Assembly (NCBI RefSeq): GCF_900103785.1
Contig: NZ_FNHE01000018.1
Location: 1 to 64,000, forward strand
From: Geodermatophilus siccatus
GTDB lineage: Bacteria; Actinomycetota; Actinomycetes; Mycobacteriales; Geodermatophilaceae
DNA length: 64,000 nucleotides
Direction of reading: 5' to 3'
How positions within the stretch are numbered: the first letter of the stretch is position 1; every line of letters starts with the position of its first letter. The position numbers and the translations under genes were made by a program. The notes beneath the pieces are model-generated. The model was given only the letters and a program-made list of their open reading frames with translations, was not told the DNA's origin and did not search any database. Positions 16,198-21,332 of this stretch are shown here, in pieces.

Positions 16198-17300
16198 CGG
16201 GGGATGGTCCCAGATCGCACGGCCTGGACCCGTTCACGCGCCGCAGCCACCGTGTCGTCGAGCGCGGCCGGGGCGTCGTCGGGGTCGATCGCGGCGCGGG
16301 CGCCGGCCACGGTCAGCTCGGCGTCCATCGCCACCGACTGCTTGACCAGTGCCAGTGCCACGACACCGAGCTCGTGGTGGCGGACGACGGAGCCGATCCG
16401 GCCGACGTCGCGGGAGCCGAGCTGCACCGGCGTCCCGGCCTCGGGCAGCTGCTCGGCCAGCCCGTCGAGGTGCAGCAGCACCAGCCGGCGCGGCGGGCGG
16501 CCGAGGTTGTGCACCCGGGCGACGGTCTCCTGCCCGCGGTAGCAGCCCTTGGCCAGGTGGACGGCGCTGGTCAGCCAGCCGGTCTCGTTGGGGATGGTGC
16601 GGTGGTCGGTGTCGACGCCCAGGCGCGGCCGCCGGGCCTCGACCCGCAGCGCCTCGTACGCGTCCACCCCGGCGGGCGCGGCCCCGGCGGCGAGCAGGGC
16701 GTCGGCGCGGGCGGCCAGCTCGGCGCGCGGCACCAGCAGGTCGGCGACGGGCGCGCCGTCCCCGGTCGGCGGCATCCGGCGCACCCACCCGCCGCCGTCC
16801 AGGGCGAGCACCGCGTACGGCGCGGCGGGGACCGGCAGGCCGGCGGCGGCGAGGACCCCGTCGCCGCGCGGGCCGACCAGGGACAGCAGCGCCCACGAGT
16901 CGGTCACGAGCGCCGGCTCGACGCGGAGCATGAACCGCATCCGCTCCAGGTACGCCTGCAGTGCCGCGCCGGTGCCCGGCTCGACGTCCACCCAGGTGGT
17001 GCCGGCGAGCTCGGCGAGGACAAGGTGGTGCTCGACGTGCCCGTTCGGGGAGAGCTCGAGGGCCTCCGCGCCGGTGCCGTCGCCGAGCTGCTCGAGGTGC
17101 TGGGTGAGCAGGCTGTGCAGCCAGGTCAGCCGGTCGGCGCCGGGGACGACGAGCACGTCGCGGTCGCTGCGGTCGACCAGGCCGGCGCCCTCGGCGAGCT
17201 CGCGCTGCTCGCGCAGCGGGCTGCCGTAGTGCGCCGGGACGGACCCGTCCTCCACCGGGACGGCGCCGGGGCGCGAGAGCAGGGGGCTGGGGGTGGGCAT
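16194..17300 (-). CDS. ygfZ: Folate-binding YgfZ/GcvT-like protein
   Basis: 368 aa, tetrahydrofolate-binding protein of the YgfZ family that supports Fe-S cluster enzymes. The diagnostic motif is KGCYRGQETVARVHN, with the GcvT-like N-terminal LVDRSDRDVLVVPGADRLTW and FMLRVEPALVTDSW. ATG 17300 shares one base with the TGA of the upstream Fur-type gene (TGATG), indicating translational coupling of metal-responsive regulator and Fe-S maintenance protein. This pairing is common in actinobacteria. Confidence 0.92.
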   Translation of the reverse strand: MPTPSPLLSRPGAVPVEDGSVPAHYGSPLREQRELAEGAGLVDRSDRDVLVVPGADRLTWLHSLLTQHLEQLGDGTGAEALELSPNGHVEHHLVLAELAGTTWVDVEPGTGAALQAYLERMRFMLRVEPALVTDSWALLSLVGPRGDGVLAAAGLPVPAAPYAVLALDGGGWVRRMPPTGDGAPVADLLVPRAELAARADALLAAGAAPAGVDAYEALRVEARRPRLGVDTDHRTIPNETGWLTSAVHLAKGCYRGQETVARVHNLGRPPRRLVLLHLDGLAEQLPEAGTPVQLGSRDVGRIGSVVRHHELGVVALALVKQSVAMDAELTVAGARAAIDPDDAPAALDDTVAAARERVQAVRSGTIPR

Positions 17301-17779
17301 CAGGACTCCGATCCGGCTCGGTCGCGGCACGCGCGGCACGTCCCCGACAGCGCGACGTGCCCCACGTCCAGCTGGAAACCCAGGTCGGCGGCCAGACGTT
17401 CCGCGGCGCCGTCGAGCAGGGCCGGGTCGACCGAGGAGACCTCCCCGCAGCTGGCGCACACGACGTGCAGGTGCGGGTGCTCGGCGGCGTGGTAGACCGG
17501 CGCGCCCTTGCCGAGGTGGGTGTGCCACACCAGCCCGAGCCGCTCGAGCAGCTCGAGGGTGCGGTAGACCGTCGAGGTGTCCGGCGCCGCGCCGTCCGGG
17601 CCGGCCTCCTCGCGCAACCGGGTGGCGATCTCCTCGGGGGTGGCGTGCTCGAGCGTGGCGACCGCGGCGAGCACCCGCTGGCGCTGGGTGGTCAGCCGCA
17701 GCCCGCGGGCGCGCAGGCGCTCGGCCAGCGGTGCCACGTCGCCGGGCGCGGCGTCGGGGTGCGGGTGCGGGGCGGGCAC
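17300..17779 (-). CDS. Fur-family transcriptional repressor
   Basis: 159 aa from GTG 17779. Winged helix at residues 20-95 (LRLTTQRQRVLAAVATLEHA, APDTSTVYRTLELLERLGLV) and a metal-binding C-terminal half (VYHAAEHPHLHVVCASCG, then CRACRD). Two CxxC pairs form the structural zinc site. Whether it is Fur, Zur or a peroxide sensor cannot be settled from these residues. The Fe-S linked ygfZ downstream favours iron or redox. A possible -10 TAGGCT lies 7 nt before the GTG. Confidence 0.88.
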   Translation of the reverse strand: MPAPHPHPDAAPGDVAPLAERLRARGLRLTTQRQRVLAAVATLEHATPEEIATRLREEAGPDGAAPDTSTVYRTLELLERLGLVWHTHLGKGAPVYHAAEHPHLHVVCASCGEVSSVDPALLDGAAERLAADLGFQLDVGHVALSGTCRACRDRAGSES

Positions 17780-17789
17780 GCCGTCCAGC

Positions 17790-18677
17790 CTAGGTCCGTG
17801 CCATCGCCCGGAGACCGGCGAGCAGGTCGGCGTAGCCGGCCACCGGGACGCCGTCCACGCTGAGCCCCGGCAACCCGGTGACGCCGTCGATCGCGCCGGC
17901 CGCGGTGGCGGCCCCCAGCACTCGCGCGTCGACCTGCGGGTCCAGCAGCGCGGCCAGGGCGTCGCGGTGCCCGGGGGCCAGCCGCGCCAGCCCGGCGACC
18001 AGCCCGGAGCAGCCCCAGTTGGAGGTGCCGGCGACGACGAGCGCGTCCACGGGCACCCGGCAGGCGATCCGGTCGCCGTGCGCGACGCAGGCGGCGACGA
18101 CGTCGGCCGGGACGTTGCCCATGCCGATCTCGTTGCCGCCGTCGCCGACCGCCCCGGTGACCAGGCCCGGCAGGTCGAAGGCCGCATGCAGCGGCGCCGT
18201 GGAGCCGGTGACGTCGAAGCCGCGCATCGTCAGCACCCGCCCGTCGGCGTTCGGCCCCAGCCGCTCCACCGCGACCAGGGAGGAGAGACCGAGGGCGGCC
18301 ACCCGGTCCCGCACCCGCGCCTCGTCCGCGGACGGCGGCAGCACCTCCAGGCGCCCGGCGCCGAGCACGTCCACGCAGGCGGCGGTCACCTGCGCGCACG
18401 GCTCGTCGGTGAGCACCACCGGTTCGGCGCCGAGCTCGGCCAGCGCGGCGGCCAGGACGGCGGTGCCCACCGGTCCGTCGGTCTCGGCCGCCGGCGTGGG
18501 CGCCCAGGCGATGTGCACGCCGGTGACCAGGCCGACCCGGCCGCCGGCGCGACCGGCTGCGGTGAGCTCCGCGGCCAGCCGGGCGAGCTGCCCGGGGACG
18601 GCGGCGGCCAGCCCGGTGACGTCGCGGGCGCCGGGGCGCAGCAGCGCCCGCTCGACGTCCGCGAGCGGACCGCTCAC
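17790..18677 (-). CDS. DUF4392 / D-glutamate cyclase-like protein
   Basis: 295 aa. Characteristic segments are GRVGLVTGVHIAWAPTPAAE, DGPVGTAVLAAALAELGAEP, VERLGPNADGRVLTMRG and AVGDGGNEIGMGNV, matching the DUF4392 family whose eukaryotic member (DGLUCY) converts D-glutamate to 5-oxo-D-proline. GTG 18677 overlaps the murL stop by 4 bases, so it is made from the murD-murL message. A role in removing free D-glutamate in a cell that epimerises glutamate on the UDP-precursor is an attractive but unproven reading. Confidence 0.8.
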   Translation of the reverse strand: MSGPLADVERALLRPGARDVTGLAAAVPGQLARLAAELTAAGRAGGRVGLVTGVHIAWAPTPAAETDGPVGTAVLAAALAELGAEPVVLTDEPCAQVTAACVDVLGAGRLEVLPPSADEARVRDRVAALGLSSLVAVERLGPNADGRVLTMRGFDVTGSTAPLHAAFDLPGLVTGAVGDGGNEIGMGNVPADVVAACVAHGDRIACRVPVDALVVAGTSNWGCSGLVAGLARLAPGHRDALAALLDPQVDARVLGAATAAGAIDGVTGLPGLSVDGVPVAGYADLLAGLRAMART

Positions 18678-19993
18678 CGCACCGGCGGGCGGGCCTCCGC
18701 GAGCGCCCGCCGCAGCGAGGTGAGGTACCGGTCGGGCACCGAGTGCTCACCCCGCGGCGGCAGGAAACCCTCGACGGTGGCGCCGGTGACCGCGGCGAAC
18801 GAGGCCGCCTCCTCGCCGAGCGCGCGGACGACGGCGTGCTCGCCCCACGCGCTGCTGCGCGCCAGGTGGGCCATCGCGGCGGCGCTCTCGGCCCGCTCCC
18901 CGACGCAGTCGAACGGCTTCTCCGTGGCCCACAGCCGCCGGAAGCCGTCGACCAGGGAGAGGTCGGCCAGCGGGTCGCCGCCGAACATCGCCTGCGCCTC
19001 CTCCGGGGTCAGGAAGACCGCGAAGCAGAGGAAGGTGAACAGGCACTTGTCGCAGTGCAGGCACCAGCGCTGCGTGGCCTCGCCGCCCATGTGCGCCTGC
19101 GTGTAGCTGCGGTTGCAGCTGAGGATCTCACCGCGCAGGTCCGGCAGGGCCGCCACCGCCGCGACCGTGGCCAGCTCCGAGAGCTGCCGGGTCAGGCTGA
19201 AGTAGCCCACGCCCACCTCGGCCGCCGCGGCGGCGAAGAGCCGCTCGAACTCGTAGGACTTCGAGTACTGGTGGTTCACCCGCGCGCCGTTGACCGTCAG
19301 GGTCTCCTCGTCGGCCGACCGCTCGTTGGCGAAGACGACCGGGTCGAACCCGCCGAGGACGGCGACCAGCGTGGCGATCGCCGAGTTGATGGCGGTGACC
19401 GGCACGTGGCCGTTGAGGCCGCCGCCCCGCGTGCGCACGCCCAGCAGCGGGTCCAGCCGGCGGCGGACGCCGATGAGCGGCACCCCCGCGGCGCGGGCCA
19501 CGTCCCGCTGGGCGTCGGTCGGGTTGACCGCGAGCGCGGTGGCCGGGGTGACCACGACCAGCGCCAGGGCGGAGTCCTTGCCACCGCCGACCGGCAGCAG
19601 CGCCTGGCGCCCGCCGCCTTCCACCGGCGCGGGCAGCTCGTCGGTCGTCCCCAGGTCGAAGGCGACCTCGTGCGGCACCGGCAGCCGGTTGACCGCGGCG
19701 AACTCGCCCAGCCCGTGCGTGTACGCGGCCTCGGCGACGGCGGCCTGGGCCTTGGTGACCAGCCGCTCGACGACGACCCGGCCCGGCGCCCGCAGCTTGT
19801 AATAGCTGGTGCCCATGACCAGGTGGACCAGGTCCAGCGCGGCGTCCACCCGCGCCGGGTCGGCACCGCCCAGCAGGTCCGGGTCCAGGGTGAGCCGCTC
19901 GGTGAACTCGTCACCGGCCAGCCGGTAGGTGAAGGCGGCCTCGCCGGTGGCGGGGTCGAGGGAGCGGCCGGCGACGACGAAGGCGTCGGACAC
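18674..19993 (-). CDS. murL: UDP-MurNAc-L-Ala-L-Glu epimerase MurL
   Basis: 439 aa. MurL, described in Xanthomonas and some actinobacteria, epimerises the terminal L-Glu of UDP-MurNAc-L-Ala-L-Glu to D-Glu using ATP. Visible marks are [14 protein letters not shown] (PP-loop-like ATP site, residues 136-141), [28 protein letters not shown] and a cysteine cluster [11 protein letters not shown] ... [19 protein letters not shown] 19993 has GAGGGG 6 nt upstream; the murD stop is 10 bp before it. It replaces the need for a MurI glutamate racemase in this branch. Confidence 0.9.
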
Positions 19994-20003
19994 GCCCTGC
20001 CCC

Positions 20004-21332
20004 TCAGACACGCGACGCCCCGGCGTCGAGGAGGATCTGCTCATAGGTGCGTGCCAACTCCTCGTAGTTGCGGAAGCGGTTGTAGCTGGGCGCGCCCGGC
20101 GAGAGCAGCACCAGACCGCCGGGCCGGGCGCTCCGGAGCGCCTCGGCGACGGCGTCGGCCAGGGAGCCGGTCTCGGTGACCGGCGCATCGACCCCCCTGG
20201 CGGCCGCGGCGGCGCGGATGTCGGCGGCGAAGCGGGCGCCGGTGTCCGGGATCGTCAGCACCCGCACCGTCCCGCCGCGGGCGACGACCGCCGCGGCCAG
20301 GTCGGTGTAGTCCAGCCCGCGGTCCTGGCCGCCGGCGATGAGTGTGACCTGCTGCCCGGCGAAGGCGTCGATCGCCGCGCGAACCGACACCGGGGTGGTG
20401 CTCAGCGCGTCGTCGACGAACGTGACGCCGTTGCGCGTGGCCACCGGCGAGAGCCGGTGCGGCAGCGCCCGGAAGTCGGCGACGGCGGCGCGGACGGCCT
20501 CGGCGGACCGGTCGAGGTCCACGCCCATCCGCACGGAGGCGGCCAGCGCGACGTGCAGGTTGGCGACGTTGTGCACGCCCGAGAGCCGCTCGAGCGGGAA
20601 GCCGGCCAGCCGCGCCCCGGGGACGACGTCGGCCGGGTCGACCAGCACCGCCGGGTCGAGGTGCTGCTCGGCGACCGGCCGGGCCTGGGGGCTCACGACC
20701 ACCGAGCCCGGCCCGCAGGAGGCGAAGACGTGCAGCTTGTCGCGGTAGTACGTCGCGACGTCGCCGTGCCAGTCCAGGTGCTCCGGGGCCAGCGAGGTGA
20801 CCGCGCCCCAGCCGGACCAGCCCTCGACCGCGGCCGCCTGGTAGCTGGACACCTCGACGACCAGCGCGGTGCCGTCGGTGACCACGTCGTCCAGGAGGAC
20901 GTCGAGCAGCGGGGTGCCGATGTTGCCGGCGTGCACCGCCGGCCGGCCGGCCGCGGACAGCACGACGGCGGCCAGCGCGCTGGTGGTGCTCTTGCCCTTG
21001 GTGCCGGTGACGCAGAGCGTCGGCACGTCGCGGGCGGCGAACTCGGCCAGGGCCACGCCGGTTCCGGAGGCGAGGGTGGTCCGGGCGGCCAGCGCGCGAG
21101 CGTCCTCGCGGTAGGGGCTGATGCCCGGCGAGCGGAACACCACGTCGCAGCCGGCGAGCTCGGTGACGTCGCTGCCGGCCCGCACGCCCGGCGGCAGGTC
21201 CGTCGGCGGGACGGCGTCGACGACCACGACCGCCGCCGCACCCGCGGTCAGCGCGGCGCGCACCGCGGCGCGGCCCTCGCGTCCGTGCCCCCAGACGCCG
21301 ACCCGGTGCCCGGCCAGCTCGGTGAGCCTCAC
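20004..21332 (-). CDS. murD: Mur ligase MurD (MurD2-type, L-Glu adding, partner of MurL)
   Basis: 442 aa Mur ligase. ATP site [30 protein letters not shown], the Mg/substrate region [24 protein letters not shown] and the C-terminal [20 protein letters not shown]. The immediate downstream murL implies this is the MurD2 form that attaches L-glutamate to UDP-MurNAc-L-Ala, with MurL inverting it. That specificity is inferred from context, not from residues. GTG 21332 has AGGGG 7 nt upstream. The open frame extends antisense through nhaA, but that is a GC-frame artefact. Confidence 0.85.

Follow-up and report, generated by a model that had tools for sequence, protein, structure and literature searches.

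The locus considered here lies in Geodermatophilus siccatus, within positions 1 to 64,000 of contig NZ_FNHE01000018.1 (the window, meaning the whole stretch of 64,000 nucleotides that was analysed), and consists of a murD2 gene, a murL homologue and a gene for a DUF4392 protein. Statements from the literature are taken from excerpts of the cited papers throughout. The MurD2/MurL pathway is known from Xanthomonas, Micromonospora and Salinispora, where a MurD of the L-glutamate (L-Glu) using type adjoins MurL in genomes without the glutamate racemase MurI, and D-glutamate is generated on the precursor of the cell wall itself. The excerpted reviews on the pathway name only MurD2 and MurL as its components, and describe MurL as a protein without known domains that probably activates the alpha-carboxylate (PMC8788868, PMC5808125). 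Adenosine monophosphate (AMP) is formed in the MurL reaction (PMC8788868). The window shares the two genes and the lack of MurI with these systems, but adds DUF4392 as a third gene that overlaps murL. As detailed below, the pairing of DUF4392 with murL is recurrent, and is not one inherited block. A third, sometimes a fourth, recurrent gene beside the known pair was not found described in the open-licence literature searched, which yielded no paper that connects MurL to DUF4392, to DUF1445 or to D-glutamate cyclase. A paper containing the terms "murl", "d-glutamate" and "cyclase" was dismissed as a prior link, since "Murl" in its excerpt denotes the racemase MurI (PMC7215955).

The DUF4392 domain is known from animals and archaea. 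In animals, it is found in DGLUCY (9030617O03Rik / C14orf159), and the mouse DUF1445-DUF4392 protein converts D-glutamate (D-Glu) to 5-oxo-D-proline (PMC5339696). The animal enzyme that was assayed on D-Glu has two domains, so its cyclase activity is not attributable to DUF4392 on its own. Among solved structures, the closest are those of TON_0340 from Thermococcus onnurineus (4FC5, 5GL4 and others; E 3e-21 by sequence). TON_0340 is a very weak Mn2+-dependent phosphatase, with AMP as the best of 20 compounds (kcat/KM 190 M-1 s-1), and has a small active-site cavity; its authors expected a small common substrate (PMC5132392).

In the window, the three genes follow each other on the minus strand in the order murD2, murL, DUF4392 (Table 1). 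The gap between murD2 and murL is 10 bp if murL starts at 19993; a start at the in-frame GTG at position 20011 instead would turn it into an 8-bp overlap. The start codon of DUF4392 and the murL stop overlap by 4 bp, in the sequence GTGA. The first-pass annotation, made from the letters alone, had described the genes on one strand with this gap and this overlap, and the profiles TIGR01087, NF041275 and PF14336 bear out its family assignments. The tight packing alone is weak evidence of shared function, because the genes that follow are equally close: fur begins 10 bp after the end of DUF4392 and overlaps the next gene, and both fur and ygfZ are as densely packed without an obvious relation.

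The MurD2/MurL assignment agrees with the rest of the genome, which is 5.2 Mb in 36 contigs and 99.99% complete. The question raised by the first-pass annotation, whether murI is missing, can be answered with yes, as the best TIGR00067 match in the genome has an E of only 0.155. Besides the racemase, D-amino acid aminotransferase is a known source of D-Glu. The window murD2 is the only murD match genome-wide at E <= 1e-50 (TIGR01087). According to a review, a Glu and an Arg at the positions of Xanthomonas oryzae Glu197 and Arg358 decide whether a MurD uses L-Glu (PMC8788868). The window MurD has both, the Glu before the His of a PEH motif and the Arg in a DRG motif. In an alignment of MurL-linked MurD proteins (33 rows, of which two are repeats, for a total of 31 genes), the Glu is present in 31 rows and the Arg in all 33; the exceptions, L090 and L098 from other genera of Geodermatophilaceae, have Asp and Arg. 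Two canonical MurDs from MurI genomes of the family read DDH and LKG instead (Asp and Lys). The assignment of the decisive columns leans in part on what we take to be the E. coli numbering. By these residues, the window protein is of the MurD2 type, and is predicted to ligate L-Glu. A second, canonical D-Glu-using MurD was considered for the MurL genomes and none was seen with TIGR01087 at E <= 1e-50, a threshold at which weaker copies would be missed: 36 of the 38 MurL genomes of Geodermatophilaceae have one MurD and two (G358 and G392) have none.

The MurL match covers positions 9-444 of the 447 in NF041275. Its score does not reach 700, the cut-off that the model sets for Xanthomonadales, and neither does any of the 18 MurL matches in a sample of Actinomycetota. 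We therefore speak of a MurL homologue and do not file it under that equivalog. A GGKD motif (GGGKDS in most) and a WC..C.KC motif are invariant in all 18 sequences of a MurL alignment, and the former resembles what we take to be the PP-loop of ATP-adenylating enzymes. A Foldseek search with the MurL model gave no match at E <= 0.001. The weak matches listed with high probability include a sulfurtransferase (5ztb), NAD synthetase and argininosuccinate synthase, presumably all PP-loop enzymes, next to unrelated folds. A PP-loop origin of MurL is a lead, which would account for the conversion of ATP to AMP.

The DUF4392 protein of the window has the fold and the metal site of TON_0340. Its predicted model (mean predicted local distance difference test score, pLDDT, 96.7) finds TON_0340 as the best Foldseek match (E 7.5e-18), with 15 chains of that protein reaching at least E 7.1e-15; behind them come matches to a DNA replication protein, to RecJ and to dehydrogenase folds, none better than E 2e-3. 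A wholly new fold is thus ruled out. The six acidic metal ligands of TON_0340 correspond to E65, D67, E138, D179, E183 and D275 here, and are invariant in 17 diverse sequences. The protein is probably a two-metal enzyme, and the metal is probably Mn. It differs from TON_0340 in that the latter is an archaeal protein with weak phosphatase activity. We know of no link between TON_0340 and peptidoglycan genes.

The distribution of the genes was surveyed in 112 genomes of Geodermatophilaceae, with profile matches for MurL, MurI, DUF4392, DUF1445 and MurD. MurL is present in 38 and MurI in 70 genomes, with no genome having both; the four with neither are 67-79% complete. DUF4392 occurs in 17 genomes, all of them among the 38 with MurL and none among the 70 with MurI. 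In all 17 it lies directly downstream of murL, with the identical 4-bp GTGA overlap in 14. By genus, it is found in 14 of 26 Geodermatophilus genomes and in 3 of 3 in the Blastococcus/Trujillonella group. In 11 other Geodermatophilus genomes, murD2 and murL occupy the same syntenic place and are followed by fur with no gene in between, and DUF4392 is missing. In a tree of seven genes of the stretch, including murL and murD2 (28 taxa), DUF4392 changes twice. Because the outgroup has DUF4392, the distribution in Geodermatophilus is most simply explained by two losses. In the remaining ten MurL genomes of Geodermatophilaceae, the murL and murD2 genes are only 36-44% identical to those of the window (tblastn), come in the order murL-murD2 and have none of the window's neighbour genes beside them; no DUF4392 was seen on the fetched stretches, three of which are shorter than 10 kb, or elsewhere in these genomes.

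Some further observations concern the same family. MurL and MurI types both occur inside groups g201 and g207, and there are two very different murL-murD2 types. The survey suggests that the switch between MurI and MurL happened more than once within Geodermatophilaceae. One genome, G355 (loci L116 and L281), is the only one of the 26 in the genus with MurI and a canonical MurD and without MurL; it consists of 610 contigs and is perhaps misfiled or mixed. In G344 (L112, 9251-12499), about 3.2 kb of extra DNA separate DUF4392 from fur, which is not the case in 15 other fetched DUF4392 loci. Open frames of 700-740 aa across murL and DUF4392 had to be considered as a possible fusion. However, only in one of the 17 loci (L014) do the two genes share a frame, and there a stop codon separates them; in the other 16 their frames differ. 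The long frames arise because high-GC DNA keeps frames open.

The first-pass annotation had proposed a survey of DUF4392 and MurL across actinobacteria. The association found within Geodermatophilaceae is complete as far as adjacency is concerned, but it does not extend to the phylum as a general rule, and had to be rejected at that level: of 296 sampled Actinomycetota, 18 have MurL and only the window's own genome has DUF4392. A wider picture was obtained by using a DUF4392 alignment to scan the GTDB species genomes. The best 80 of at least 433 relatives were analysed, 13 from Geodermatophilaceae and 67 from elsewhere. Since these loci were picked by likeness to the window protein, a less biased sample is needed as well. 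All 13 family loci have both murL and murD2. Outside the family, murL lies beside DUF4392 in 6 of the 67 loci, all in metagenome bins (Table 1). MurI over the cut-off is absent from five of the six bins, which is weak evidence because the completeness of the bins is not given.

A second sample comprised 398 Pseudomonadota, centred on the genome (G409) of the linked locus L142. MurL was found in 20 of them, DUF4392 in 10 and both in three, in which the two genes are always near each other. In G469, DUF4392 directly precedes murL, and in G520 the order is murL, murD2, an open reading frame (ORF) and DUF4392, with DUF4392 2.8 kb from murL. Without the chosen centre, DUF4392 thus adjoins murL or lies no more than 3 kb from it in 2 of 9 DUF4392 genomes; for a 4.2-Mb genome and a distance of up to 5 kb from murL, about 0.001 such cases would be expected by chance. 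Among 14 genomes from the phylum of L174, MurL is present in one, the centre of that sample itself. The intervening ORF of G520 (L276, 5163-6410; 415 aa) matched nothing in Pfam at E <= 0.01.

Linkage to murL is thus found in other phyla too, and an outcome that the first-pass annotation had named as speaking against it, DUF4392 not being associated with murL elsewhere, did not occur. A DUF4392 tree was built from 91 sequences, 22 of them MurL-linked; on it, the linkage label needs 8 changes, at least 4 of which are forced by starred branches. A single origin was tested as one clade of linked sequences, and rejected by the approximately unbiased (AU) test on a quick tree (p-AU 1.3e-6). The tree contains several long-branch rows, unlinked rows on short contigs could be linked unseen, and the change counts do not separate gains of linkage from losses. 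As a separate observation, 27 of the 67 loci outside the family, many of them from Reyranella, have an acyl-CoA dehydrogenase homologue near DUF4392 (Pfam assignment made for L152, 4544-5752), hinting at another use of the DUF4392 family.

Table 1. Features of the window locus, the DUF1445 gene of the same genome, and loci outside Geodermatophilaceae with DUF4392 beside murL
Feature	Location	Strand	Evidence and remarks
murD2 (UDP-N-acetylmuramoyl-L-alanine, UDP-MurNAc-L-Ala, ligase; L-Glu-using type)	20004-21332	minus	start taken as GTG at 21332; TIGR01087, 246 bits
murL homologue	18674-19993	minus	GTG start; NF041275, 314 bits (model cut-off 700), E 1.4e-93
DUF4392 gene (PF14336, D-glutamate cyclase-like C-terminal), 295 aa	17790-18677	minus	GTG start; 204 bits (Pfam gathering cut-off 27.9), E 3.5e-60
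Fur-family regulator, downstream neighbour, not counted as a member of the system	17300-17779	minus	PF01475, E 4e-20
DUF1445 gene of the window genome	G000:C19:429554-429982		PF07286, 236 bits
L132, Acetobacteraceae			metagenome bin; order DUF4392-murL-murD2
L138, Geminicoccaceae			metagenome bin; order DUF4392-murL-murD2
L142, L146, Alphaproteobacteria			metagenome bins; order DUF4392-murL-murD2
L174, filed as Omnitrophota			metagenome bin; order DUF4392-murL-murD2; 4-bp murL-DUF4392 overlap
L161, Bifidobacteriaceae			metagenome bin; murL divergent; murD2 not seen on short contig

The other half of the animal cyclase, DUF1445 (PF07286), also accompanies DUF4392 in bacteria. Of the 67 loci outside the family, 27 contain it, and in 20 it is the immediate neighbour of DUF4392 (one query, E <= 1e-8). 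In L132, L142 and L146 it lies directly upstream, which yields a four-gene cluster DUF1445-DUF4392-murL-murD2; Pfam confirms the DUF1445 assignment in all three. These Alphaproteobacteria thus have a separate DUF1445 gene that looks like the split form of the animal fusion. In Geodermatophilaceae, DUF1445 is present in 44 of 112 genomes, comprising all 17 with DUF4392 and 27 of the 95 without; within Geodermatophilus, the figures are 14 of 14 and 1 of 12. The window genome has DUF1445 and DUF4392 on different contigs and not fused, and for this reason the window protein is not filed as a DGLUCY enzyme. Its DUF1445 gene, which we take to belong to the YcsI family, is divergent to the genes for an Nramp-type transporter and for pxpA, pxpB and pxpC. 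Both pxpB and pxpC were found within the stretch in 14 of 16 fetched DUF1445 surroundings (16 of the 44 family genomes). The pxpABC-ycsG-ycsI operon of B. subtilis, a set consisting of 5-oxoprolinase and an Mn2+ importer (PMC10448178), has the same components. It differs in that the DUF1445 gene of the window genome is divergent from the pxp genes, and that the DUF4392 gene is located elsewhere.

It is tempting to read the trio as the MurD2/MurL route to peptidoglycan D-Glu, joined by an accessory DUF4392 protein that handles free D-Glu together with DUF1445. We favour this explanation tentatively, and consider it plausible but somewhat short of probable. In hosts with MurI, free D-Glu could be returned to L-Glu. 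In hosts without it, D-Glu released by the breakdown of old wall would not be returnable by racemisation. As MurD2-type enzymes are expected to use free D-Glu poorly, it may be a dead end. DUF4392 and DUF1445 would then convert it to 5-oxo-D-proline in the manner of the fused animal protein, and 5-oxoprolinase, with its genes beside DUF1445, may complete the recycling to glutamate. The many MurL genomes without DUF4392 mean that the protein is accessory and not a step in precursor synthesis. The more far-reaching version, in which DUF1445, DUF4392 and PxpABC form a racemase-free route from D-Glu via 5-oxoproline to glutamate that was recruited several times by MurD2/MurL bacteria, appears doubtful. 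To our knowledge, there is no evidence for the D form of 5-oxoproline as a substrate of PxpABC.

Several observations weigh against the D-Glu explanation. DUF4392 is missing from 21 of the 38 MurL genomes in Geodermatophilaceae, from 17 of 18 in the Actinomycetota sample and from 17 of 20 in the Pseudomonadota sample, and in the latter the genome-level co-occurrence is not significant (p 0.064), only the adjacency is. Conversely, 61 of the 67 loci outside the family showed no murL in the vicinity of DUF4392, with 7 of the 67 loci shorter than 8 kb. Among the six linked bins, MurI is found in the one from Bifidobacteriaceae, and two of the other five match TIGR00067 weakly, under the cut-off (E about 1e-8). 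Within Geodermatophilus, DUF4392 and DUF1445 are concordantly missing, but this pattern goes back to two independent events, a number insufficient for a tree-aware test. DUF1445 without DUF4392 is found in 27 family genomes, 18 of them with MurI, and so must also have a role apart from DUF4392. Other bacteria consume D-Glu with D-amino acid dehydrogenase, and dehydrogenases or aminotransferases are alternative consumers in general (PMC6131576). The published activity of an isolated DUF4392 protein is that of a weak phosphatase and not of a cyclase (PMC5132392). Finally, the archaeal host of TON_0340 calls for an explanation other than D-Glu of peptidoglycan. For the suggestion of the first-pass annotation that DUF4392 clears free D-Glu, the balance is thus mixed: the pairing with the other cyclase half is in its favour, the activity of the isolated family member is not.

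The phosphatase activity leads to the main rival explanation, in which DUF4392 serves as a housekeeping phosphatase or pyrophosphatase acting on the MurL by-products AMP and pyrophosphate (PPi), or as a phosphatase of some other small phosphate, and D-Glu is irrelevant. TON_0340 prefers AMP and depends on Mn2+ (PMC5132392), MurL makes AMP (PMC8788868), and RecJ-type proteins are among the next-best fold matches of the DUF4392 model. However, the catalytic efficiency of TON_0340 on AMP is very low (PMC5132392). Such a role would also leave unexplained the repeated pairing with DUF1445, the lack of DUF4392 in most of the MurL genomes examined, and the frequent occurrence of DUF4392 with no murL nearby. 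On balance, we consider a phosphatase role unlikely.

Even less likely, in our view, is an action of DUF4392 on an intermediate or damaged side product of the MurD2/MurL reactions, for example the clearance of a cyclised or wrongly activated glutamyl product of epimerisation. The probable activation of the alpha-carboxylate by MurL (PMC8788868, PMC5808125) would make such products conceivable, and the immediate neighbourhood of the genes, with the 4-bp overlap in most family loci and in the Omnitrophota locus, would fit. However, DUF4392 occurs in many loci without murL nearby, and the small cavity of the solved homologue is at odds with the idea, as is the small common substrate that its authors expect (PMC5132392). 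The proposal of the first-pass annotation that the third gene processes the intermediate found no support here. Least of all do we believe in a chance inheritance of the neighbourhood within one lineage of Geodermatophilaceae: although the equally packed fur and ygfZ and the absence of DUF4392 from 11 murL-bearing congeners (most simply two losses) would be compatible with it, it is strongly disfavoured by linkage in other phyla that is independent and shows another gene order, by the rejection of a single linked clade, and by the excess of adjacent cases in Pseudomonadota over the chance expectation.

DUF4392 has solved structures and spans archaea, bacteria and animals, but the authors of the structure left its substrate open. 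The repeated placement of the gene in clusters for peptidoglycan D-Glu, sometimes together with DUF1445, makes its function directly testable. Geodermatophilaceae offer a natural experiment in this respect, as their genomes vary in the use of MurL or MurI and in the presence of DUF4392. If the D-Glu explanation is true, loss of the glutamate racemase would create a D-Glu disposal problem, and some lineages would have solved it with an enzyme family that is also used in animal mitochondria.

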